Positions 5,850 to 27,500 of a stretch of 64,000 nt of DNA are shown piece by piece. The first letter of the stretch is position 1; the number at the start of each line of letters is the position of its first letter. Position numbers and translations under genes: made by a program. Location: the NCBI GenBank assembly GCA_012513515.1, contig JAAZCA010000003.1, positions 9,904 through 73,903 on the forward strand, in the 5' to 3' direction. The notes beneath the pieces are model-generated. The model saw only the letters and a list, made by a program, of their open reading frames with translations, ran no database searches and was not told where the DNA came from. The DNA is from Myxococcales bacterium. GTDB lineage: Bacteria; UBA10199; 2-02-FULL-44-16; JAAZCA01.

Positions 5850-8693
5850 ATGCCATACGAAGAAATAATCGTCCGCGGCGCGCGGACGCACAATCTGAAA
5901 AACATCGACATAACGATTCCGAAAAATAAGCTCGTAGTCATAACCGGGCTCTCGGGTTCGGGAAAGTCGTCGCTCGCTTTCGACACGATCTACGCCGAGG
6001 GGCAGCGAAGATACGTGGAATCTCTGTCGGCTTATGCCAGGCAGTTCCTGACGCAGATGGATAAGCCCGACGTCGACTCGATAGAAGGGCTCTCCCCCGC
6101 AATATCCATAGAACAGAGAAATGCCAGCAAAAACCCCCGCTCGACCGTCGGCACATCTACGGAGATATACGACTATCTGCGGCTTCTCTTCGCCCGCGTG
6201 GGGAAGCCCCACTGTCCTTCCTGCAAAAGGCCCATCTCGGGGCAGACTATATCGCAGATGGTGGACCACATACTCGGAATGCCGGAGGGAACGAAGTTCG
6301 CGATCCTGTCCCCTATCATCTCGGGCAGGAAGGGCGAGCACGCAAAGGAACTCGCCTCGCTCGCAAAACAGGGGTTCATAAGGGCGAGAATAGACGGCGA
6401 AACCGTCGAGCTCTCCGATTCTCCGAAACTCGACAAGAAGAAAAAACACGACATCGACCTGTTCGTCGACAGGCTCGAGGTCAAGCCCTCCATCAAATCG
6501 CGGCTCGCCGACTCGCTTGAGACGGCGCTCAAGTTCGGAAACGGAATCGTCCGCATCCTGCACGGAAAAGAGGAAACTCTGCTCTCCGAAAAAAATTCCT
6601 GCGCGTACTGCGACGTCAGCATGCCGGAGATAACGCCCCAGCTGTTCAGCTTCAACAGTCCCAAGGGTGCGTGTCCGGACTGCGACGGCCTCGGCAGCCG
6701 GAGATATTTCGACCCGGACCTCATCGTTCCGAACAGGAACCTGTCTCTGCGCGACGAGGCGGTCCTGCCCTGGCAGAGGATGAAAGCCACCGACAGAATC
6801 GAGCTGGCTTCGGCCCTTGCGCGCCATTACGGATTCGACATATACACCCCCTTCGGAGAGCTCCCGGAAAAAGTTCAGGAAGTCATATTTCACGGCTCGG
6901 GCGATGAAAAAATAAAGTTCTCCTACGACACCGGCGACGACAAAAAACACGTCTTCAAGGCCCCCTTCGAAGGGGTCATACCGTCGCTGGAAAAAAAGCT
7001 TCGCGAAGCGGCGACCCTATCCGCGCAGGAATACGCGGAACAGTTCATGAACATGAGGCACTGCCCCACCTGCAACGGAACCCGCCTCAGAAAAGAGGCC
7101 CTCTCCGTTCTTTTCGACGGCAGGAACATCAGCGAAGTCGTCGCGATGCCGGTCGGCGAATGCGCAAAATTTTTCCGGTCCGTGCGCCTCGGGAAAAAGG
7201 ACGCTGAAATAGCCAAAAAGCTCATGAGCGAGATCATCGAGCGCCTCTCATTCCTCATAGACGTCGGGCTCGACTACATCACGCTGGAGCGTTCGAGCAT
7301 GACCCTCGCCGGCGGAGAGGATCAGCGCATACGCCTGGCGACGCAGATAGGCTCGGCGCTCACGGGAGTTCTCTACGTTCTCGACGAGCCGTCCATCGGC
7401 CTCCACCAGAGGGACAACGACAGGCTGATCTCCACGCTCAAAAAACTCCGGGACATAGGCAACACGGTTCTCGTCGTGGAGCACGACCGGGACATGATGC
7501 TCGAAGCCGACCATATAATCGACATGGGCCCCGGCGCGGGGATGAACGGCGGGAAAATAATCGCCACGGGCTCTCCGGCCATGGTGATGAAAAATCCAAA
7601 ATCTCTCACAGGGCAGTACCTGGCCGGCAAGATATCCCTTGAAAACCGCGGCGCGCGAAGATCCCCTTCCGAAGCGGCCATAAAGATCACCGGCGCGAAG
7701 GAACACAACCTGAAAAACGTAGACGTAAAAATTCCTCTCGGACTTTTTACGGCGGTCACCGGCGTATCCGGCTCGGGCAAATCGACGCTTATAAACGACA
7801 CCCTGTATGCGGGGCTCATGCAGAGAATATTCAAGTCCAAGATGCCCGCGGGGGCCGTCGATGAAATAACCGGCCACCAGCAGATAGCCCGCGTCATCAA
7901 CATAGATCAAACCCCAATCGGGCGCACTCCGAGGTCGAATCCGGCCACTTACACTGGGATTTTCACCCACATCCGCGACCTTTACGCGGAGCTGCCCGAC
8001 TCCAAATCCAGGGGATACAAGCCCGGGCGTTTTTCCTTCAACGTCAAAGGCGGAAGGTGCGAAGCCTGCGAAGGGGACGGCATCATCAAGATAGAGATGC
8101 ACTTCCTTCCGGACGTCTATGTGGAATGCGAAGTCTGCCGGGGGATGCGCTTCAACAGGGAAACTCTCGAAGTGAAGTACAAGGGGGCGTCGATAGCCGA
8201 CGTGCTTCGCATGACTATAAACCAGGCCCACTCCTTCTTCGAAAACATTCCGCAGATACGCCACAAGCTGGAAACCCTGATCGATGTCGGGCTCGGATAC
8301 ATCGAGCTCGGCCAGTCTGCGACGACTCTGTCCGGCGGAGAAGCCCAGCGCATAAAGTTATCAAGAGAACTATCGAAGCGCTCCTCCCCGATACAAGCCG
8401 AGGGAGGCGTCGGAAAAACTCTCTACATACTCGACGAGCCCACCACCGGACTTCATTTCGACGACGTGATGAAGCTGCTGGACGTGCTGGACAAACTCGT
8501 CGCCGCAGGCAACACGATCGTGGTGATAGAGCATAACCTTGACGTAATAAAGTTCGCGGATTACTGTATCGACTTGGGGCCTGCGGGGGGCGCTAGGGGA
8601 GGCGAAATAGTCGCCGTAGGCACTCCCGAGGAAATCGCGAAAAACCCCAGATCACACACAGGAAGATACCTCAGAGAGGTATTAGGAGAGTGA
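5850..8693 (+). CDS. uvrA: Excinuclease ABC subunit UvrA
   Basis: Damage-recognition ATPase of nucleotide excision repair, 947 residues, as usual. First ATPase: GLSGSGKSS Walker A near residue 37, with the insertion and UvrB-binding domains after it. The zinc modules are CPSC...CPDC and later CPTC and CEAC...CEVC pairs. Second ATPase: GVSGSGKST Walker A, then [12 protein letters not shown] signature and [10 protein letters not shown] Walker B. The first ABC signature reads [12 protein letters not shown] instead of the near-invariant [12 protein letters not shown] (see findings). The stop TGA overlaps a GTG that could begin the next gene. Confidence 0.97.
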
Positions 8694-8695
8694 CC

Positions 8696-9727
8696 ATGAA
8701 AAATTCGAAGGCTCTCGCAGCACTCGCAGTTCTGGCAATTACTCTCGTATTTCCATTTTCACAGGCTGATGCCGAAAGCAGGCAGATTAGCGCCCAAGGC
8801 GTTCTTCTCGACGGAACGCCGATATCGATGACAATCATCGCCGATGAATCGATGCGGGAATCTGCGGAAAGCGCCGTCTCGGACGCCATCTCCAGGATAT
8901 CCTCTGTCGACCTCCAGCTGTTCTCGGCAGACGGCATCCAGGACAAGATAAACTCGCTTGGCAAATCGCAAAAACTCGAACTTCCGTTTGAAATTTTCGA
9001 CATGATATCCAAGTCTGTCGAACTCTCAGCCCTCACCAAGGGATGGTTCGACATCGCAGCCCCCTCAAAGAAGGAGATGTTCATAAATCGCGATTGGAGG
9101 CGTATCGTTCTCGATGACAGCTCCAGATCGATGTCTTTCAAAAGCGACGGGATGCAGCTCGATCTCTCTAAAATTTCCAAAGGTTACTATGCGGACATGG
9201 CGATCGGTGAAGCCTCGAAGGCCGGGTTCTCGGATGCCATGGTGGAAATCGGCTCCGTGCAGAGAAACATCGGACATGATATCTTCACTCCATGGAAAGT
9301 CGACATCGGTTTCGGCGGCACCTCCGGCAATTTCGCGCACAGGGCGGCCAGCTATAAAATCAGGAACATCGCCTCGGCGACGGTCGGCGAAAACAGCCTT
9401 GGCTCCGGCCTGATAGACGGCAGGAGCAAGCTCCCCGTCGCTCAGGGGAAGATGAGAAGCGTGACGATCCTCTCGCAAAGCGCGGTCAGGGCAACGGCCT
9501 ATGCGCTTGCCGCTTACGCCGTGGGGCCAAAGTACGCAATGCACTTCGTCAACAGGCATCCCGACGCAAAAGTTATCATCGTGGACAAGTCGGGACAGAT
9601 CGCCTCCTCCGAAGGGCTCAACACCGGATCGACAAACCTTGTAAATAGGTGGCAGACGGAAAACACAAACGATGGCGGACCGAATGACCTCAAGAAAAAG
9701 GAACAGGAAGAAAACAGCGATCTGTAG
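8696..9727 (+). CDS. Secreted ApbE-fold protein, catalytically degenerate (paralog 1)
   Basis: The start is taken as ATG 8696, with AGGAG at 8684-8688; the GTG at 8690 overlapping the uvrA stop would add two residues. A signal peptide (LAALAVLAITLVFPFSQADA) is followed by an ApbE (FAD:protein FMN transferase)-like domain. Recognisable landmarks are KGWFDIAAP, LDLSKISKGYYADMA and AVGPKYAM. The residues that make ApbE active are changed. The SHIIDPRTG block reads SGLIDGRSK, and the Mg-binding Asp and Thr of the ADALATAL helix are replaced (RATAYALA). It therefore probably binds a flavin, nucleotide or protein without transferring FMN. It overlaps a second protein of the same kind by 56 bases. 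Fold assignment is fairly sure; function is unknown. Confidence 0.75.
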   Translation: MKNSKALAALAVLAITLVFPFSQADAESRQISAQGVLLDGTPISMTIIADESMRESAESAVSDAISRISSVDLQLFSADGIQDKINSLGKSQKLELPFEIFDMISKSVELSALTKGWFDIAAPSKKEMFINRDWRRIVLDDSSRSMSFKSDGMQLDLSKISKGYYADMAIGEASKAGFSDAMVEIGSVQRNIGHDIFTPWKVDIGFGGTSGNFAHRAASYKIRNIASATVGENSLGSGLIDGRSKLPVAQGKMRSVTILSQSAVRATAYALAAYAVGPKYAMHFVNRHPDAKVIIVDKSGQIASSEGLNTGSTNLVNRWQTENTNDGGPNDLKKKEQEENSDL

Positions 9728-10619
9728 CACCATCCTGTTATCGATCACAGCCGCTGCGCTCTTTTTCCTCCCCGCTTCTGCCGGCGCGCAGAGCATCGAG
9801 GAATATCAGCGCCATGTTACGATAGGCGGCACCATGCCCGTCTCCCTGATCATCCTCGGCTATTCGCATGACAAGGCGCAGATAAACCAGCTGATCGACG
9901 TTGTCGTATCCAAGGCAAACCAGGCATATTACAACATGGACTGGAGAAATTCGCAGGGCGAGGTGTTCCGAGTCAATTCCCTTGCGGGCGCCGCTCCGGT
10001 TGAAGTTTCACCGGAGGTTTTCGCCGCATTTCAGGCCGCGAAGAAAATTTCGGAATGGTCGGGCGGCGCATTCGACATCACCTATTACAAGGGAAGCGGC
10101 AATTACAAGGATATCCGGCTTAACGACTCCAGCAAGAGCGTTCAGTTAAAGAGCAAGGGGATGGAGGTGCGCTTCGACGACCTCGCGCAGGGGCTTATCG
10201 CGGACATAATGATACGCTACATCTACCACGCCAACATGCACAACGCGATGGTGAAGGCGGGAAGCGTATTTCGGGGACTCGGCCAGGGGATGCACGGGCC
10301 GTGGAAAATCACGATGGAAGAGGACAGCGGGGCATTCGCAAGACATGCGCTGAACCTGGTGGTAAGCAACACCGGCATAGCGGCTATCAGCGCCAGCGAA
10401 TTTCGCGGCGTTGCCATAATAGACCCGAGAAGCAAGTCCCCCACTTACGTTCAGTGCAAAGGGGCTGTCGTCGTGATGAGCGACGCGGCGCTGGCCCAGG
10501 GAATCGCGAGGGCCGCCTTCGTCCTCGGCCCTGAAAAAGGAATGGAGCTTCTAAGCAAGTACGCGAAAGGGGTAATCGTCGACAACAACGGGAAGTTCAT
10601 CCGCTCGCCAGGGTTTTGA
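9672..10619 (+). CDS. Secreted ApbE-fold protein, catalytically degenerate (paralog 2)
   Basis: 315 residues with a basic n-region and a signal peptide (STILLSITAAALFFLPASA). ATG 9672 or ATG 9684 could be the start; neither has a strong ribosome site, and translation is probably coupled to the upstream gene it overlaps. It retains ApbE landmarks (SGGAFDITYYKG, MEVRFDDLAQGLIADI, IDPRSKSPT, VLGPEKGMELL). It lacks the Lys of the KG(Y/F) block, the SGNYER block and both metal ligands (ADALAT becomes AQGIAR). It resembles its upstream neighbour more in gene order and architecture than in exact sequence, so this looks like an old tandem duplication followed by divergence. A scaffold or flavin-binding role is conjecture. 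Confidence 0.72.
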   Translation: MADRMTSRKRNRKKTAICSTILLSITAAALFFLPASAGAQSIEEYQRHVTIGGTMPVSLIILGYSHDKAQINQLIDVVVSKANQAYYNMDWRNSQGEVFRVNSLAGAAPVEVSPEVFAAFQAAKKISEWSGGAFDITYYKGSGNYKDIRLNDSSKSVQLKSKGMEVRFDDLAQGLIADIMIRYIYHANMHNAMVKAGSVFRGLGQGMHGPWKITMEEDSGAFARHALNLVVSNTGIAAISASEFRGVAIIDPRSKSPTYVQCKGAVVVMSDAALAQGIARAAFVLGPEKGMELLSKYAKGVIVDNNGKFIRSPGF

Positions 10620-10621
10620 AG

Positions 10622-11155
10622 ATGTTCAAAAACTACCTCGCCCTGCTTGAAAAGGCCGACTCCTTTTTCTCCAAAGTCTTCAATGAAAACCCTTCAAAGA
10701 TGAACTGCTCCGAGGGATGTTCGAAGTGCTGCGTGGACGGCATCACCCTCCTGCGAATCGAACGCGACAGGATCATCTCGCATCTGAAAAACAGGGATGA
10801 GATGCCCGTCAAATCCAAAACCGGGGGATGCGCATTCCTCTCGAGCGAAGGGCGCTGCAAAATCTACGAGGTCCGCCCTCTGGTATGCAGGACCTGGGGG
10901 ATCCCGATTATATATTCAGAAGGCGACCCCTCCGCCCTTTCAGAGAAAATGAGCAGAGGCGCCGTGGCAAGCGGAGGCTCGGTCGTGTGCTGCGACTTAA
11001 ATTTTCAGGAAGAGTTCCGGAAAGGCGCGCTCGGAAAGGAAATTATAATGAACGGCGACAGGATCCTGGAAATTCTCGTGGCGGTAAACAGCATCTACTG
11101 CAACAAATTGTCGGCCGATTCGGCTAAGCGATTTCCGCTCAGGAATATAATCTAA
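10622..11155 (+). CDS. YkgJ-family cysteine-cluster protein
   Basis: About 177 residues. ATG 10622 is taken; a TTG at 10616 overlaps the previous stop. The N-terminal cluster CSEGCSKCC (C-x3-C-x2-C-C) and the later GGCAFLSSEGRCKIYEVRP and LVCRTWG cysteines are the signature of the YkgJ / zinc- or iron-chelating cluster family (CxxxCxxCC). The fold binds zinc or an iron-sulfur cluster, and no member has a settled enzymatic role. It sits 2 bases after the second ApbE-like gene, so the three form one transcription unit. A conserved link between a metal or Fe-S protein and flavin-fold proteins would be worth testing. Confidence 0.8.
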   Translation: MFKNYLALLEKADSFFSKVFNENPSKMNCSEGCSKCCVDGITLLRIERDRIISHLKNRDEMPVKSKTGGCAFLSSEGRCKIYEVRPLVCRTWGIPIIYSEGDPSALSEKMSRGAVASGGSVVCCDLNFQEEFRKGALGKEIIMNGDRILEILVAVNSIYCNKLSADSAKRFPLRNII

Positions 11156-12250: not shown

Positions 12251-12395
12251 CAGTCACGGTCGTTGCTGGATCCCCGATAGAACCATTCGGGGATGACACC
12301 ATGAATGTCATTCCCGCGGCACTAAGCCGCCGCTACCGCGGGGTTCCGACCGTTAACCAGTTACGAGTCACGAGTCACCAGTCACAAGTCACGGT
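12251..12395 (+). repeat. Dispersed intergenic repeat, copy A
   Basis: The segment 12284-12395 matches 23104-23210 almost base for base, including CATTCGGGGATGACACC and a block around GCGGCACTAAGCCGCCGC that is itself a hairpin. It ends in five degenerate 7-base units of the form CNAGTCA. The left part (12251-12279) matches the reverse complement of 16650-16679. So copy A combines segments found separately in copy B and in the MITE-like copy C. The repeat runs up to the leader of the carbamate kinase gene and could pass for an N-terminal extension of it, because the frame is open. Confidence 0.8.
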
Positions 12396-12459
12396 ACCCA
12401 TAGTAGTTGACGAAAAAAGCGCGTCATTTTATACGCTCACCCTCACCTCGGAGGATCGA

Positions 12460-13410
12460 ATGTCTAAAAAGGGCGGGCTCGTAATCGCGCTGGGCGGAAA
12501 CGCAATCAGTAAGCCCGGGAAACACGGCACGATTCAGGATCAGTTCTACGCAACCTACGAAAGCATGGAACATATCGCCGAGCTCGTGAGCGACGGCTTC
12601 GACAGGCTGGTGGTGACCCATGGCAACGGCCCGCAGGTCGGAGCCTCTATCCTCAGAAGTGAAATAGCCGCAAAGTCCACCTACCCGCTCCCCATGGATA
12701 TATGCGTCGCGGATACGCAGGGCGGAATGGGATATATGATTCAGCAGGTTCTAAAAAACACGCTCAAAAAACGCAAAATCTCAACGCCAGTGGCCACGAT
12801 CGTCTCGCAGGCGCTGGTCGATTTAAATGACCCCGCCTTCGAAAACCCTACCAAGCCGATAGGAATGTTCTACACCGAGAAAGAGGCAAACGAACTGCGC
12901 GTCGGCCGCGGCTGGACGATGAAGGAGGATGCCGGCAGAGGTTTCAGGCGCGTCGTCCCAAGCCCGAAACCGATAAAGATACTCGAGGTCGATGTAATAA
13001 AAGCGCTATTCGACAAGGGATTCATAGTCATAGCGGGCGGCGGCGGCGGCGTTCCGATAGGGCTCAACCGCCAAGGCTTATATTACGGAATCGAGGCGGT
13101 GATCGACAAAGATCTCACAAGCGCCCTGATCGCAGCAGAAGTGGGGGCCGATACGCTAGTAATTCTCACCGCGGTTGAATTCGCCTACCTCGATTTCTTG
13201 GGCGAAAATAAGCGGGCCCTGACGGAGGTAAAGGTGGAAGAGATGCAGCGCTACCTCAACGCGGGTGAATTCCAGGCGGGCAGTATGAAGCCAAAGGTCG
13301 AAGCCGCATTGAATTTTTTGGAGGGGGGCGGCAAGAAGGCCATCATAACCTCGCTTTCAAATTGCCTGGCGGCCCTGCACGGCAGAACCGGGACGCATAT
13401 AACAAAGTAA
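12460..13410 (+). CDS. arcC: Carbamate kinase
   Basis: The start ATG 12460 has GGAGGA at 12450-12455. The frame is open further upstream to 12301, but that part is translated repeat DNA. The product of about 316 residues begins MSKKGGLVIALGGNAI. It has the amino-acid-kinase motifs THGNGPQVG, QGGMGYMIQQ, GFIVIAGGGGGVP and the Lys/Asp DKDLTSALIA. It makes ATP from carbamoyl phosphate plus ADP, or runs in reverse. No arcA/arcB or other carbamoyl-phosphate genes adjoin it, so its metabolic partner is not visible here. Confidence 0.92.
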   Translation: MSKKGGLVIALGGNAISKPGKHGTIQDQFYATYESMEHIAELVSDGFDRLVVTHGNGPQVGASILRSEIAAKSTYPLPMDICVADTQGGMGYMIQQVLKNTLKKRKISTPVATIVSQALVDLNDPAFENPTKPIGMFYTEKEANELRVGRGWTMKEDAGRGFRRVVPSPKPIKILEVDVIKALFDKGFIVIAGGGGGVPIGLNRQGLYYGIEAVIDKDLTSALIAAEVGADTLVILTAVEFAYLDFLGENKRALTEVKVEEMQRYLNAGEFQAGSMKPKVEAALNFLEGGGKKAIITSLSNCLAALHGRTGTHITK

Positions 13411-17777: not shown

Positions 17778-18392
17778 TCAATCGACAGCTTTTTTGATCT
17801 TTTCCACCGCATCGTTAACCGCGCTGCACACTGCCCGCGATGATATCGTAGCCCCTGTTATTGCCTCTATAACCCCGCCATCCTTGTTGACCGCTACAGG
17901 CGCCTGCTGCTCGTCGAACTGGGTCTGAAACCATGGCCTCAGTCCGCCTTCATCAGGACTAGTACCGGTAATCACGGTTCCCCAAGTCCTTTTAGAATCG
18001 AGCGCCTCTACCTTATCGCCAAGCCCTGGAGTTTCCTTCTGGTACAAAACCTTGACCCCCTTGATCACGAAATTGAGATCAACCCCTACCATAACCTGTA
18101 GTACGCTGGAATAACCTGAAGCGGCTCCGGTCGCTACATATCCAATTGCATATCCACCCTTCTTCGCAATCCTGAAGGAAAACTTCTCGCCGCCAATATC
18201 CTTTGTGACCTCCTCAAAGGAATCGGCATCCGGTATCACGATCTTTAAGGCCTCCTCAACGAGCGCCTTTTGCATCGCATCCTTCTTCGGCTTTGTGACC
18301 GAATAAAGTGCCGCAAGACTCGCAGCCGAGATAAGCGCCACGATTAGAAGCACGATCGGGAATTTCAACCACTCAGGCATCTTTTGAGACAT
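17778..18392 (-). CDS. rnfG: Rnf complex subunit RnfG (covalent FMN, electron transport)
   Basis: Single-span protein with its flavin domain on the outer face of the membrane. ATG 18392 is preferred over 18407; it overlaps rnfD by 20 bases. TM at about residues 10-30 (FPIVLLIVALISAASLAALY). The FMN-attachment motif is TGATISS near the C-terminus (consensus (S/T)GAT-(S/T)), with the Thr carrying FMN through a phosphoester made by ApbE. It is the last gene of the operon. The Rnf complex couples ferredoxin:NAD+ electron transfer to Na+ or H+ movement. Confidence 0.93.
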   Translation of the reverse strand: MSQKMPEWLKFPIVLLIVALISAASLAALYSVTKPKKDAMQKALVEEALKIVIPDADSFEEVTKDIGGEKFSFRIAKKGGYAIGYVATGAASGYSSVLQVMVGVDLNFVIKGVKVLYQKETPGLGDKVEALDSKRTWGTVITGTSPDEGGLRPWFQTQFDEQQAPVAVNKDGGVIEAITGATISSRAVCSAVNDAVEKIKKAVD

Positions 18393-19440
18393 GACCTTTG
18401 ACTCCAAAGAAACGCGGGACGGTGAGTCTGTCTATCACCCACACCGCTGTGTTCATTATGAGTATCGAATAGCAAACCCCTTCCGGATATCCACCGTAGA
18501 GGCGTATCAGCGCAACTAAAATTCCGCACCCGACTCCAAAAATCGTCTGCCCCTTCCCTGTAAGGGGGCTTGTGACCATATCGGTAGCCATAAAAAAAGC
18601 GCCGAGCATCAGCCCGCCGGAGAACGCCTCCGCAGTTGATATTCTTACCAGATCTAACCACCCTCCTTGCAAAACGACGTCCTTCCACAGGAATATCGTT
18701 CCACCAGCGCCATCCGAAACAGGAAGAAACACGGTAAATATCATGACTGTGGCTATATAGCTGAGCGGCAGGCGCCAGTTCACATATCCTTTTACGATCA
18801 GAAAAATTCCGCCTGCGATAAGCGCAAGAGCGGAGGTCTCTCCGATAGAGCCGGGGATCCTTCCGATGAAAAGATCCATCAGCGAGTAGTGCGAAAAAAT
18901 CGTAAGCGGCGCTTCTTTCAAAATGGCGCACGGAGTCGCCTTGGTTACCGCGTCGACCGTTATATTTCCAAATAAATAGTTGGAAAGTATCGGCCACTTC
19001 GTCATCACGATCTGCCCGGAGTAGGCGGCCAGAAGAAATGCGCGTCCGGCGAGCGCCGGATTCCATATGTTGAATCCAAGCCCGCCAAAAGCCTGTTTGG
19101 CTATCGCTATGGCAAATACGCTGCCGATCACCGGAAGATACAAGGGAACATTCGGCGGCAGAGTGAATGCTAGAAGAAGGCCGGTGAGCGCCGCAGAGCC
19201 GTCGGAGACGGTGACGGGAACGCCCCTAAAACGCTGTATTGCGGCCTCGCACAGTACGGCGGAAATCATGGAGACCGCAACGACCATGAGCGCGTAATAA
19301 CCGAAATATATGGCGGCGACTATCAGCGCTGGAACAAGCGCGATAATGACGCTCCACATGATCCGCTGTATGCTGTCCTTGGTCGCCACATGCGGCGCGG
19401 GACCTACCACCAATTTGCCATCAAAAAGTTGTTCAGACAT
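18373..19440 (-). CDS. rnfD: Rnf complex subunit RnfD
   Basis: Integral membrane subunit, 355 residues, about ten hydrophobic spans, with the sequence of the NqrB/RnfD family (LVVGPAPHVATKDSIQRIMW at the N-terminus, FGGLGFNIWNPALAGRAFL). The FMN-binding segment reads DAVTKATPCAILKEA, where most RnfD proteins have (S/T)GATP: the Thr is kept and the Gly is Lys. It lies between rnfC (25 bases) and rnfG (overlap). Confidence 0.93.
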   Translation of the reverse strand: MSEQLFDGKLVVGPAPHVATKDSIQRIMWSVIIALVPALIVAAIYFGYYALMVVAVSMISAVLCEAAIQRFRGVPVTVSDGSAALTGLLLAFTLPPNVPLYLPVIGSVFAIAIAKQAFGGLGFNIWNPALAGRAFLLAAYSGQIVMTKWPILSNYLFGNITVDAVTKATPCAILKEAPLTIFSHYSLMDLFIGRIPGSIGETSALALIAGGIFLIVKGYVNWRLPLSYIATVMIFTVFLPVSDGAGGTIFLWKDVVLQGGWLDLVRISTAEAFSGGLMLGAFFMATDMVTSPLTGKGQTIFGVGCGILVALIRLYGGYPEGVCYSILIMNTAVWVIDRLTVPRFFGVKGHVSKDA

Positions 19441-19465
19441 ATTTCGAACTCCCGCTGAAAAAGAG

Positions 19466-20803
19466 TCATTTTTTCTTCGACTGTTCAGACTTCCACGCCA
19501 TGTATTCGGCCTTTGCCCTCTTTATATAGTGGACGAGGCTTCTATGCGACGGGCAAGCGAAGGTGCACGTCCCACACTCCACGCAGTCGAGCACATGGAG
19601 ATGCTCATATTTTTCCACCTGCCCCGCCTCTATCGCAGCCACCATTTCAGCCGCCATGCCGTGCAGAGGACAAACCTCTATGCACTTTCCGCACCTGATG
19701 CACGGGCCTGGGCGATGAAGCACAGTTTTATTGAACGCTAGAATGCCGCTCGTTCCCTTGACGACTGGGATATCTGCCGATGGAAGCGCAATTCCCATCA
19801 TCGGCCCGCCCATCACGAGTTTTTTTGTCTTTCTATCGACCCCCTGTCGAAGCAGAAGATCGGCGACCGATGTCCCAATCGGCACGACCAGGTTTGCGGG
19901 TTTTTCCACCCCCTCCCCCGTGACGGTGACGGCGCGTTCAATAAGGGGTTTTCCTTCACAGACCGCTTCGTAGACCGCAAGCGCCGTACCTACATTCTGA
20001 ACAACGACTCCGACATCGAATGGAAGTTTCCCCGGAGAGACTTCCCTGCCGAGCAGAGCCTCTATTAGTTGCTTTTCCGCCCCCTGTGGGTATTTCACCT
20101 TCAGCATCTCGGCGGTGATGCCGCTATCGGACCAGACCGCGTCGCGCATCTTCTCGAACGCGTCGGGCTTGTTTGCCTCCACTCCTATTATCGCTTTTTC
20201 AACCCCGAGCGCCTTCATCATGATTCGAAGCCCAATGGCTACCGCCTTGGTCCTATCTATCATGACTCTGTAATCGCAGGTCATGTAGGGCTCGCACTCT
20301 ACGCCATTGAGAATCAGCACATCGATGGGTTTGTCTTCGGGCGGAGAGAGTTTGACATGAGTCGGGAACGCCGCACCGCCGAGGCCGACAACTCCGCAAT
20401 TCTTTATTATCTCCTTGATCTCTTCTCCGTCGAGGCTCTGCCACTCGCGTTTTTCAAGAATGCCATCCAGCCACTCCTCCTGACCGTCCGCCTCTATAAC
20501 TATATGATCGCAGACCTTCCCGCTGACGATAGCACGCTGAACTATCGCAGAAACCTCACCTGAAGTAGGTGCGTGAACCGGGACCGACACATAACCGGAG
20601 GCCTCCGCAAGCACTTGTCCCTTCTTTACCAGATCGCCCACCGAGACGATGCTCTTCGCAGGCGATCCGATATGCTGCAAGACCGGCAGAATCAAAGTCT
20701 TCGGCATCGCGATTTTTTCGAGCGCCACGTCTTTCGACAGATGTTTCATTTCAGGTGGATAAACGCCGCCATGTGAAAATGTCTTCATATTTTTCCGATC
20801 CAT
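19466..20803 (-). CDS. rnfC: Rnf complex subunit RnfC (NADH/Fe-S, FMN)
   Basis: 445-residue peripheral subunit on the cytoplasmic side. It has the NuoF-like nucleotide/FMN region with GVVGLGGAAFPTHVKLSP and ILNGVECEPYMTCD, then an SLBB-like part and two [4Fe-4S] motifs, CIRCGKCIEVCP and CVECGTCTFACP, near the C-terminus. The basic tail (KRAKAEYMAWKSEQSKKK) is short; E. coli RsxC has a long repeat tail there. It is the site where NAD(H) exchanges electrons with the complex. Confidence 0.95.
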   Translation of the reverse strand: MDRKNMKTFSHGGVYPPEMKHLSKDVALEKIAMPKTLILPVLQHIGSPAKSIVSVGDLVKKGQVLAEASGYVSVPVHAPTSGEVSAIVQRAIVSGKVCDHIVIEADGQEEWLDGILEKREWQSLDGEEIKEIIKNCGVVGLGGAAFPTHVKLSPPEDKPIDVLILNGVECEPYMTCDYRVMIDRTKAVAIGLRIMMKALGVEKAIIGVEANKPDAFEKMRDAVWSDSGITAEMLKVKYPQGAEKQLIEALLGREVSPGKLPFDVGVVVQNVGTALAVYEAVCEGKPLIERAVTVTGEGVEKPANLVVPIGTSVADLLLRQGVDRKTKKLVMGGPMMGIALPSADIPVVKGTSGILAFNKTVLHRPGPCIRCGKCIEVCPLHGMAAEMVAAIEAGQVEKYEHLHVLDCVECGTCTFACPSHRSLVHYIKRAKAEYMAWKSEQSKKK

Positions 20804-20822
20804 TTTGCAAAGAGAGGGGCGA

Positions 20823-21662
20823 TCACTGCTGCGCCTGAGCCTCTTTGGACTTTTTCACCGGCCACAGGCCGGCTGCCTTTCTAACTTCCCTCTGGCTGAA
20901 TATCGCACCGGTCGGACACTCCTTCGCGCAGATGCCGCACGATACGCACTTTTCATAATCTATGACCGCCAGGTTATTGACGACGTGAATCGCGTCGAAC
21001 TTGCATGAAGTTTCGCACTTCTTGCATCCGATGCATCCAGCCTTGCAATATCTGCGGACTAATTTTCCAGACTCGCAGTTAACACACCCTACGTGAACGA
21101 GCTTTGCAACCGGTAAAGTTTTGAAGAGGCGTTTGGGGCACACGGCGACGCACTTTCCGCATGCGGTGCATTTCGATTCGTCTACCACAGGAAAACCGTC
21201 AACCATGTGAATAGCGTCGAAGGAACAGGCTGCCGCACAGTCGCCGTAGCCGATGCAGCCGACGCTGCATTCCTTTGGGCCGCCATGAATGAGGTTTGCT
21301 GCCGCGCAGGTTTTTATTCCATCATATTCGAATCTGTCCTGCACATCCCTGCCATGGCACATCATGACAGCGACATCCTTCTCAACGGTTTTGGCCTCGA
21401 CCCCCATGATGTCGGCGACCAGATGGGCGACGGCCTCTCCGCCGGGTATGCACCCCGTGATCTCCGCGCTTCCATGAACTATCGCCTTGGCAAAGGACGA
21501 GCACCCCGCAAGTCCGCAGGCACCGCAGTTGGCGCCGGGCAGGACGTGCTCCACGCTAACGACCCTCGGATCCACATAAACCTTAAAGACTCTCGACGCG
21601 ATGAAGAGCCCTACCCCAAACAGCAGGCCCAACGAACATAGTATTATGATTGCTGGCAACAT
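20823..21662 (-). CDS. rnfB: Rnf complex subunit RnfB (ferredoxin-type Fe-S)
   Basis: 279 residues: one N-terminal TM (IIILCSLGLLFGVGLFIA), the RnfB-specific cluster CGACGLAGC, and a long C-terminal polyferredoxin region. The latter has CSVGCIGYGDC...C, CTACGKCVAVCP, CKAGCIGCKKCETSC and CVSCGICAKECP motifs. That is several more clusters than the E. coli type (about 190 residues) and is like the long RnfB of anaerobes that take electrons from ferredoxin. Position: third in the operon, 20 bases before rnfC. Confidence 0.94.
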   Translation of the reverse strand: MLPAIIILCSLGLLFGVGLFIASRVFKVYVDPRVVSVEHVLPGANCGACGLAGCSSFAKAIVHGSAEITGCIPGGEAVAHLVADIMGVEAKTVEKDVAVMMCHGRDVQDRFEYDGIKTCAAANLIHGGPKECSVGCIGYGDCAAACSFDAIHMVDGFPVVDESKCTACGKCVAVCPKRLFKTLPVAKLVHVGCVNCESGKLVRRYCKAGCIGCKKCETSCKFDAIHVVNNLAVIDYEKCVSCGICAKECPTGAIFSQREVRKAAGLWPVKKSKEAQAQQ

Positions 21663-21720
21663 AACGCCTCACACAAAAGTTTTCAGAAAAATTCAGAAAC
21701 GTGCTTCACAATTTTTATCG

Positions 21721-22374
21721 TCACTTCACCAGCCCGGCAAATCCCATGAACGCAAGCGACATGAGTCCCGTACATATGAATGCGATCGGCGCCCCCTTCA
21801 TCGCTTCGGGGAGCTGAACATTGTCCAGCTTTTCGCGGATTCCGCTCATCAGCAGTATTACAAGGAGAAAGCCTACTCCTCCGCCAAAGCCCTGAATCGT
21901 CGTCCTGAAAAAGCTATCCCCCGCGTTCTGAAGCATCCCGAAATCGCTGATATTTAGAAGCGCCACGCCAAGCACCGCACAGTTTGTAGTGATGAGGGGA
22001 AGATATATTCCAAGCGCCTCGTACAGAGGGGGAAGCGCCTTCATCAGAAACATCTCTACCAACTGAACCAATGTGGCGATGACGAGGATGAAAACTATCG
22101 TAGTAAGGTAGGTGTAATCAAAATCGATCGGCGTCTTTCCGGCTCCCATAAATGAGAAAAATATATTTTCAGCAGAGGGGGCGAGCAGGTAGCGATAGAC
22201 GACCCATGAAACCGCCGATGCCATCGTCATGACGAAGATGACCGCTCCCCCCATTCCCAGCGCAGATTTTATCTGTTTGGACACTCCTATGAAGGGGCAA
22301 AGGCCGAGAAATTTCGCCAATACGAAATTATTTATGAGTACTATCGAAATAAAGAGCATGAAATATGACTGCAT
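21721..22374 (-). CDS. rnfA: Rnf complex subunit RnfA
   Basis: 217-residue membrane subunit with six predicted spans, of the RnfA/NqrE family (NNFVLAKFLGLCPFIGVSK at the N-terminus, with the conserved Cys of the intramembrane Fe-S site; LITTNCAVLGVAL as the second half-site). With RnfE it forms the antiporter-like pair that holds an Fe-S cluster in the membrane. The gene is 58 bases ahead of rnfB. Confidence 0.95.
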   Translation of the reverse strand: MQSYFMLFISIVLINNFVLAKFLGLCPFIGVSKQIKSALGMGGAVIFVMTMASAVSWVVYRYLLAPSAENIFFSFMGAGKTPIDFDYTYLTTIVFILVIATLVQLVEMFLMKALPPLYEALGIYLPLITTNCAVLGVALLNISDFGMLQNAGDSFFRTTIQGFGGGVGFLLVILLMSGIREKLDNVQLPEAMKGAPIAFICTGLMSLAFMGFAGLVK

Positions 22375-22392
22375 ATCCTCTCCGTTTTAAAA

Positions 22393-23007
22393 TCAGACTG
22401 GTCTTGTCCGTTTATTCGCCCTTCTGTAATTCATCCACGCCATGATAAGGCCTATTACGACGAAGGCGCCTGGGGCCATGACCATCACGGCAGCAGGCTT
22501 GAAAAAAGCTTCGTTGGTGAAATACGAGCTTATCGTGATCCCCCAGATTTTACCGGAGCCCAAGACCTCGCGTATGAAGGCTATCAGCATCAGGGAAAGG
22601 GTAAACCCCAGCCCCATTCCCATCCCATCGAAGATGGATGGAAGTACGCCGTTTTTGGAGGCGAAGGCCTCGGCCCGACCGAGGATGATGCAATTGACGA
22701 CTATCAGAGGGATGAAAATTCCAAGCGACTGGTTGAGCGCAGGCAGATACGCACCCATCACCATTTCAACGACAGTGACGAAGGTCGCGATAACGACTAT
22801 GAAGCAGGGGATTCTGATCTTGGAAGGGAAGAATTTTCCAAAGATGGAGATCATGGCGTTGGAGCAGACAAGGACGAATGTCGCAGCTAGCCCCATTCCA
22901 ACGGCGTTTTGAAGCGAAACCGAAACGGCGAGGGATGGGCACAGTCCAAGCATAAGGATGAAAATAGGATTCTCCTTGAAAAGGCCCTTGGTCATCTCTT
23001 TTAGCAT
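22393..23007 (-). CDS. rnfE: Rnf complex subunit RnfE
   Basis: About 204 residues from ATG 23007, which has AGGAG before it. The frame is open back to 23106, but that part runs into repeat DNA and lacks a ribosome site. It is an RnfE/NqrD family protein with ENPIFILMLGLCPSLAVS (Cys half-site) and LIVVNCIILGRAEAFA. It is first in the operon, so the order here is E-A-B-C-D-G. Its leader borders a copy of the dispersed repeat. Confidence 0.93.
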   Translation of the reverse strand: MLKEMTKGLFKENPIFILMLGLCPSLAVSVSLQNAVGMGLAATFVLVCSNAMISIFGKFFPSKIRIPCFIVVIATFVTVVEMVMGAYLPALNQSLGIFIPLIVVNCIILGRAEAFASKNGVLPSIFDGMGMGLGFTLSLMLIAFIREVLGSGKIWGITISSYFTNEAFFKPAAVMVMAPGAFVVIGLIMAWMNYRRANKRTRPV

Positions 23008-23092
23008 GGTATCTCCTGCGGAATCGAAAAGATGCGCCCTTATACAAAAAGACTCAAGGATATCAATAAGAAAAGGGGGGTGAGGGGATGGC

Positions 23093-23220
23093 GACCTTTT
23101 CGTCATTCGGGGATGACACCATGAATGTCATTCCCGCGGCACTAAGCCGCCGCTATTGCGCGGGGTTCCGACCGCTCACCAGTCACGAGTCACCAGTCAT
23201 AAGTCACGGTTGTTGCGGGA
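23093..23220 (+). repeat. Dispersed intergenic repeat, copy B
   Basis: The segment 23104-23210 matches copy A (12284-12395). 23093-23118 is identical to the reverse complement of 16607-16632 and 23202-23220 to that of 16660-16678. It contains the hairpin around GCGGCACTAAGCCGCCGC and four 7-base units (CNAGTCA-type) at 23176-23206. It lies just upstream of the rnf operon, so its hairpin could affect rnf expression. Confidence 0.8.
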
Positions 23221-26468: not shown

Positions 26469-27500
26469 TCAATAGATCCTGACTCTGTTTCTCCATTCAT
26501 CACTCGGTTTTAGGCGATCGGCAAGCGCGGATGCCACCCACAGCACCGAGAGATCCCCCGTCTTCTCGACGATGATACATGGAAGTTCCACCCTGCCAGA
26601 GAGCTGGATCCCGGAATGAAGCCCCATCAGCATCACGGATGTCGCCATGGCATCGGCATCAGCAGCGCTTCCCCCTACTACGGTAACGCTGACGATGCTG
26701 TTTTCAACCGGCAGCCCGCTCATGGGGTTGTAGATATGCGAATAGCGCTTGCCCCCGATTTCGTGGTAGCGCTCATAGTTGCCAGACGTTACGACGGCGC
26801 AGTTTTCTATCTCGATCGTTCCGATGAGTTTCCCCTCTTCGAAGGGATCCTGAATTCCTACCGTGAGAGGCCTGTCGCCGAAAACGTAGGCATCCCCTCC
26901 AGCCTCGACCACACCCGCCAAGACTCCCGATGAAAGCATATCCTCTACAGCTGCATCGACGATGTATCCTTTGGCGATAGCGCCAAAGTCCAGGGAGAGA
27001 CCCTGCTCGGCGAAATGGACCTTTTCTCCGTCGACGGTTTCAACCTTTCGCATACCAATGACCGATATCGCACCGGATATCTCCTGGTGGGAGGGAACTC
27101 TCCCCTCCTTCGCAGCCCTGTTCCAAAGGGAAATTACGGGGGCCACAGTCGGATCGAAAGCACCGCTCGTGATCGTGTTCCATTTTCTCGACAGGGAAAT
27201 GATACTCTTCATGTCGTCGCTGACGTCCACAGGGGAGGAAAAAGCGCGCTCGTTGATCTTTGAAAGCTCGCTGAGAGGATCGTAAGCGCTAAATACCTTA
27301 ACCAAAGATTGAACCCTCCCTTCGACCATGGAGATCGCCTTGTTAAAGCCGAGATAGTTTTTGCCATAGGCCACAACCTTAACAGGTATCGGCCCCATCG
27401 GATAGAAGGTAGCCTCGTACCTCCTCGGAGAGAATGCGAAGACCAGCACCCCTGCAACGGCAAAAAACGCGATGACGGCAAGAAAATGTTTCATCTTCAC
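26469..27500 (-). CDS. apbE: FAD:protein FMN transferase ApbE
   Basis: GTG 27500 has GGGAGGG seven bases upstream; ATG 27494 is the alternative. A signal peptide or anchor (FLAVIAFFAVAGVLVFAF) precedes a canonical ApbE domain with SGAFDPTVAP, LDFGAIAKGYIVDAA, VEAGGDAYVFG, AVVTSGNYER, YSHIYNPMSGLP and the metal-binding ADADAMATSVMLMG. It attaches FMN to Thr of (S/T)GAT sites, so RnfG and RnfD encoded 4-9 kb away are its expected substrates. All catalytic residues missing from the two ApbE-like proteins at 8.7-10.6 kb are present here. Confidence 0.95.
   Translation of the reverse strand: MKMKHFLAVIAFFAVAGVLVFAFSPRRYEATFYPMGPIPVKVVAYGKNYLGFNKAISMVEGRVQSLVKVFSAYDPLSELSKINERAFSSPVDVSDDMKSIISLSRKWNTITSGAFDPTVAPVISLWNRAAKEGRVPSHQEISGAISVIGMRKVETVDGEKVHFAEQGLSLDFGAIAKGYIVDAAVEDMLSSGVLAGVVEAGGDAYVFGDRPLTVGIQDPFEEGKLIGTIEIENCAVVTSGNYERYHEIGGKRYSHIYNPMSGLPVENSIVSVTVVGGSAADADAMATSVMLMGLHSGIQLSGRVELPCIIVEKTGDLSVLWVASALADRLKPSDEWRNRVRIY

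Follow-up and report, generated by a model that had tools for sequence, protein, structure and literature searches.

The closest described relatives of the proteins considered here are the flavin transferases ApbE, Ftp and FmnB. In FmnB, the active site comprises Met49, Asp128, Phe142, Asp184, Lys190, Asn216, Ser257, Glu261, Arg262, His273, Asp301, Ser304 and Thr305, of which Ser257, His273 and Asp301 form the catalytic triad (PMC8906456). The site residues of Ftp_Ec are D280, D283, T284, E169 and R240, and its Mg site consists of the Asp and the Thr of a DxxxT segment, D280 and T284 (PMC4767422). In a review, too, the conserved catalytic residues are Ser, His and Asp (PMC12052999), and surveys of flavinylation take ApbE as their genomic marker (PMC8238504, PMC11334425).

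We analysed a stretch of 64,000 nucleotides from contig JAAZCA010000003.1 of a Myxococcales bacterium, referred to below as the window, in which two neighbouring genes, here called A and B, encode ApbE-like proteins that lack the catalytic and metal-binding residues. The coordinates of these genes and of the other features discussed are compiled in Table 1. The reading that we favour, with moderate confidence, is that A and B are periplasmic pseudoenzymes derived from ApbE and exapted to a role other than flavinylation, probably as a binding scaffold. To our knowledge, no clade of ApbE pseudoenzymes with a conserved gene order has been described, and the incomplete literature collection that we searched yielded no text with both ApbE and pseudoenzyme, none with both ApbE and UPF0280, and no description of a linkage between uvrA and ApbE.

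Table 1. Coordinates of the features discussed. Entries with an L number lie on contigs of the genome given in brackets; all others are positions of the window.
Feature	Position	Strand	Length	Remarks
uvrA (excinuclease ABC subunit A)	5850..8693	+	947 aa	
Gene A	8696..9727	+	343 aa	Predicted exported ApbE-fold protein without catalytic/metal residues (PF02424, AlphaFold2 model, residue table)
A V230	9383..9385	+		Aligns with catalytic Ser (FmnB Ser257)
A G238	9407..9409	+		Aligns with catalytic His (FmnB His273 / Vibrio His257)
A T267	9494..9496	+		Aligns with Mg ligand Asp (FmnB Asp301)
C-terminal GGPND(L/V) codons of A	9671..9700	+		Contain purine-rich GGCGGA and the ATG of B
Gene B	9684..10619	+	311 aa	Predicted exported ApbE-fold protein without catalytic/metal residues (PF02424, AlphaFold2 model, residue table)
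B I235	10386..10388	+		Aligns with catalytic Ser (FmnB Ser257)
B A244	10413..10415	+		Aligns with catalytic His (FmnB His273)
B Q272	10497..10499	+		Aligns with Mg ligand Asp; Gln in 7/8 B proteins of the order
YkgJ-like CxxCxxCC protein	10616..11155	+		PF03692; start TTG 10616 or ATG 10622
Carbamate-kinase-like gene	12301-13410	+		Recognised by eye
RNF-type operon	17778-23106	-		
RnfG-type FMN_bind protein	17778..18407	-		Adjoins RnfD
RnfD	18373-19440	-		
RnfC-like	19466-20803	-		
RnfB-like ferredoxin protein	20823-21662	-		
RnfA/E-like membrane proteins	21721-23106	-		
Canonical catalytic ApbE	26469..27500	-		SGNYER, SHIYNP and DADAMAT all kept; comparison protein outside the pair
ApbE-like protein (G028)	L081:5328-6221			Degenerate clade
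His-less protein (G014)	L127:7142-8089			Ends xAAC(F/M)
His-less protein (G016)	L140:1710-2609			Ends xAAC(F/M)
Compact-ApbE cassette (G025)	L149:1522-4227			
Compact-ApbE cassette (G024)	L143:759-4119			
Compact-ApbE cassette (G012)	L148:1073-3318			

Three lines of evidence, from homology and predicted fold, place A and B in the ApbE family and bear out the assignment made in an earlier note on this DNA. Both proteins exceed the curated Pfam cut-off for ApbE (PF02424, 25.6 bits), A with 88.4 bits (E=7e-25) and B with 106.3 bits (E=2.5e-30); ApbE is the sole NCBIfam family assigned to either of them, and PHROGs gave no match. A phmmer search of the PDB matched ApbE, Ftp and FmnB (E=1e-4 for A and 5e-14 for B) and essentially no other structures. 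AlphaFold2 models built from nine homologues (pLDDT 74.0 and pTM 0.73 for A, 83.9 and 0.80 for B) had solved ApbEs, and no other fold, as their best match across the entire mature chain; against Treponema Ftp (7mgt), model A reached Z 29.4 over 278 residues at 2.9 A and model B Z 30.7 over 270 residues at 2.3 A. Signal peptides recognised by eye place both proteins putatively in the periplasm, that of A being N-terminal, of the Sec type and without a lipobox Cys.

The alignment to FmnB confirms the loss of the catalytic and metal residues in both genes. At the positions of the triad, A has V230/G238/T267 and B has I235/A244/Q272; at those of the Asp and Thr of the Mg site, A has T267/L271 and B has Q272/R276, while Asn/Asp216 is replaced by V188 and V195, respectively. 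No conserved substitute ligands are found at the aligned positions, so that, as judged by alignment, the metal site has not been restored from other residues. Two details of the earlier description need correction: the Lys of the I-A-K-G motif is kept in A (K162) and gone in B (Q169), and, although the His of SHIIDPRTG is indeed lost, B retains the string IIDPR that followed it. The canonical ApbE encoded in the same window is complete, as had been stated, with the triad and the metal Asp and Thr all in place, and it likely flavinylates the RnfG-type FMN_bind/RNF proteins of the window. By the catalytic criteria tested, A and B would not be FMN transferases, and the residue content supports the earlier view of them as non-transferases. 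They were also considered as possible targets of flavinylation, a candidate that was rejected since the motif [DE]xx[ST]GA[ST] is missing from all aligned proteins.

The loss is not peculiar to this genome, nor is it the mutation of a single gene; it is an old property, common to an entire clade. Among 46 genomes of the class, 38 have ApbE-like genes, and 18 of them encode a total of 30 degenerate proteins, all without the catalytic His, whose reading frames are intact, so that a local mutation or a frameshift artefact was rejected. In trees computed with the active-site columns removed, the 30 proteins form one clade (support 100/99, and 100/100 in another tree), whose nearest relatives are compact catalytic ApbEs (98/97 for the union), a placement that depends on rather long branches. 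His273 is present in none of the 30 and in 36/36 catalytic relatives, Ser257 in 0/30 and 35/36, Asp301 in 1/30 and 34/36, and Asn/Asp216 in 0/30 and 32/36. The single protein with Asp301, that of G028, is the sole clade member keeping the metal-site Asp and a Ser (DAALADALASAL); its entire Ser-His loop is deleted, which suggests that this loop can be lost ahead of the metal site.

The A proteins and the B proteins of families f1-f3 form a subclade each, and the f5 tandem pair groups separately in its own, which indicates that the tandem duplication happened twice. Three further His-less proteins (G009, G014 and G016) are placed among the compact catalytic ApbEs, suggesting a second, independent loss of the His; the tree prefers this second origin, and a single origin for all 33 His-less proteins is not shown, although a single clade for them is not rejected either (p-AU 0.408). 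The proteins of G014 and G016 end in xAAC(F/M), like the uvrA-linked ones of G034, G039 and G009. With a profile of the degenerate family, B-type and single-copy members scored 309-416 bits in a sample of 290 genomes, in which no members were found outside the class; the best outside score was 102 bits, and the two best outsiders (G241 and G259) have kept their catalytic residues and do not adjoin uvrA. A contig scan with a narrow alignment found close relatives also on three MAG contigs, labelled Deltaproteobacteria bacterium, bacterium and Bdellovibrio sp.

The degenerate genes share their genomic location. The uvrA gene lies directly upstream, on the same strand, in 16 of the 16 assessable clade genomes, contig ends being too near to judge in G007 and G026. 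It also precedes the complete compact ApbE of G034 and G039 and the degenerate ApbE of G009, which lies outside the clade; the remaining compact-ApbE genomes examined do not have uvrA as the immediate neighbour of the ApbE gene. The most parsimonious course of events is one in which a compact catalytic ApbE settled behind uvrA first and lost its active site later. The linkage is inherited gene order and not evidence of a role in DNA repair. Regarding the order uvrA-ApbE-like-ApbE-like-YkgJ, for which a search in relatives had been proposed, the link to uvrA is general, but the YkgJ-like gene follows only in the window's family f1 (G000-G003) and was rejected as a general partner. A carbamate-kinase-like gene is found close downstream of the ApbE-like gene or genes not only in the window but also in G002, G003, G004, G006 and G007.

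The reading frames of A and B overlap by 44 bases in different frames, and the two genes are likely translationally coupled. The tail GPND(L/V) of A is conserved in four aligned members; since its codons double as the ribosome-binding leader and start codon of B, this conservation may stem from the initiation of B and not from the function of A. The junctions at 8690-8696, 9684-9727 and 10616-10622 suggest that uvrA, A, B and the YkgJ-like gene are translated together.

The earlier note had proposed for the pair a flavin-binding or substrate-recruiting module, and neither part of this proposal is upheld. If A and B bound flavin or adenine nucleotides without catalysis, they could be periplasmic flavin carriers or sensors. 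The architecture of two T-folds is retained overall, D119, D156 and K162 of A align with Asp128, Asp184 and Lys190 of FmnB, and the Vibrio ApbE variant H257G still folds (PDB 6nxj), all of which would be compatible with such a role. However, most FAD-contact residues have been lost together with the metal ligands: besides Ser257, Asn/Asp216 and His273, Arg262 is gone in all but one of the clade proteins, as are nearly all Mg ligands, and in 30/30 another residue takes the place of the isoalloxazine-stacking Met49 and the lid segment that bears Phe142 is missing. The absence of the lid alone is a weak argument because the compact catalytic relatives lack it too. A comparison of entropies points the same way, in which the FAD/Mg contact columns were set against 5000 random column sets for a random eight catalytic ApbEs and for the A and B proteins of the order, eight of each. 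In the catalytic enzymes, the contact columns have a mean entropy of 0.58 versus 1.58 for all columns, and 0/5000 random sets were as low; the corresponding values are 1.31 versus 1.54 in A, with 11% of the random sets as low, and 1.40 versus 1.39 in B, with 54%. FAD-contact residues are thus not conserved above background in either protein, which argues against flavin binding, and we consider this alternative unlikely.

A further alternative is that A and B are new enzymes, whose ancestral cleft would have been refashioned from other side chains to accept a different substrate. In B, new charged or polar residues have become nearly invariant in and around the former site (R163, D165, K191, R197 and Q272), which would also suit a rebuilt binding or catalytic site. 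The position of Asp184 is fixed by subclade, as Asp/Glu in A, Arg in 7/8 B proteins and mostly Asn in f5, and Gln/Glu is fixed at the position of Asp301 in B and f5. Nevertheless, no set of polar residues new to the clade is invariant throughout it; in the B-like alignment, only N98, G128, D131, G170, G200, W207, A219 and G303 are invariant, and these are mostly common to catalytic ApbEs, so that we assign this alternative a low probability.

The distribution of flavinylation genes bears on whether A and B could be accessory subunits that bring client proteins to the canonical ApbE encoded in their genome. A catalytic ApbE of the long type and RnfD/NqrB co-occur in 12/18 clade genomes, as this idea would have it, and in G000 client proteins were found along with its own catalytic ApbE. 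The search included DUF2271 because PMC8238504 reports it as a client type without an FMN_bind domain. In draft genomes G005, G006, G010, G013, G023 and G033 (84-99% complete, five of them 96-99%), profile searches detected no catalytic ApbE, FMN_bind, RnfD/NqrB or DUF2271, and yet all six retain the degenerate gene or genes. This makes a helper role in flavinylation unlikely and runs counter to the proposed substrate recruitment for ApbE; moreover, the gene is linked to uvrA rather than to rnf, so that we regard the accessory role as very improbable.

The idea that the genes are selectively neutral relics, persisting only through the uvrA transcription unit, fits their constant position behind uvrA but hardly deserves credence, given that all are intact, that two independent duplications were retained and that, over a deep divergence, codon position 3 differs by 0.52-0.70 versus 0.22-0.43 at position 2 with zero stops, a pattern of purifying selection on the protein sequence. 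As the proteins are conserved and their contact columns unremarkable, the constraint appears to sit on the fold and surface and not on the nucleotide site.

Our preferred reading, that of periplasmic pseudoenzymes with a non-flavinylation role, suggests the following history. The ancestor would have been a compact, catalytically complete ApbE beside uvrA, an arrangement persisting in G034 and G039. In the clade, the Ser-His-Asp triad disappeared together with nearly the whole Mg site, and tandem duplication occurred twice, in families f1-f3 and in f5, with intact genes retained behind uvrA. The exported proteins would keep the ApbE fold but no longer hold FAD and Mg productively or transfer FMN, and their task in the periplasm would be to bind or to scaffold without catalysis. 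In members of this order, the coupled genes would probably give rise to an A/B heteromer, and the process served would not depend on protein flavinylation.

The compact catalytic relatives differ from the clade in their flavinylation genes. Their ApbE can occur in a cassette with a small FMN_bind protein and a probable membrane protein of about 160-175 aa, with an outer-membrane-barrel-like protein ahead of them in G024 and G025; this cassette is possibly an undescribed electron-transfer system based on flavinylation. A compact catalytic ApbE occurs in 17 genomes; FMN_bind accompanies it in 16, all of which lack RnfD/NqrB. Such associations with flavinylation genes reflect few independent events and not many. 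The small FMN_bind protein of the cassette was not seen in the clade genomes, whose FMN_bind proteins all adjoin RnfD or are long (about 414-430 residues). A more specific scenario, which we offer only tentatively, is that the ApbE gene outlived its substrate: the small FMN_bind client and the active site would have been lost, and the duplicated gene would have become a periplasmic heteromer with a new function, as scaffold, inhibitor or binding protein, required in the class and tied to uvrA by co-expression.

These proteins matter for annotation, as assignment at the family level would label A and B “FAD:protein FMN transferase” and credit their genomes with a flavinylation that may be missing. 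The uvrA-linked series, from an intact ApbE through a partly eroded one and a degenerate single copy to a degenerate tandem pair, offers natural steps from enzyme to pseudoenzyme, and makes testable the question of what role the ApbE fold can take once flavin transfer is lost.

Compared with known systems, A and B share with ApbE, Ftp and FmnB (PF02424; Treponema 4IFU-7MGT, Listeria 7ESA, Vibrio 6NXI) the two-T-fold structure (Z 27-31, spanning residues 26-315 of A and 36-311 of B), scaffold residues such as GAFD/GWFD and GPW, and export. Unlike these proteins, they have no Ser-His-Asp triad, Mg site or lid segment, the loop from SGNYER to the His is shortened or deleted, and no lipoprotein anchor motif was seen. 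The next-best structural match, also with an ApbE-like fold, is the DUF375/UPF0280 protein DVU1097 (PDB 2o34); identity with this family was rejected, as its Z values of 15.4 for A and 16.6 for B are far below those of ApbE (about 30) and there is no sequence-family match, ApbE being the only NCBIfam assignment. A and B also resemble the compact catalytic ApbEs of the same class (G034, G039, G024 and G025), which likewise lack the lid segment, have a short TSGxYERGxHIIDP loop and, in G034 and G039, occupy the same place behind uvrA, but which, unlike A and B, have kept the triad and the metal residues.
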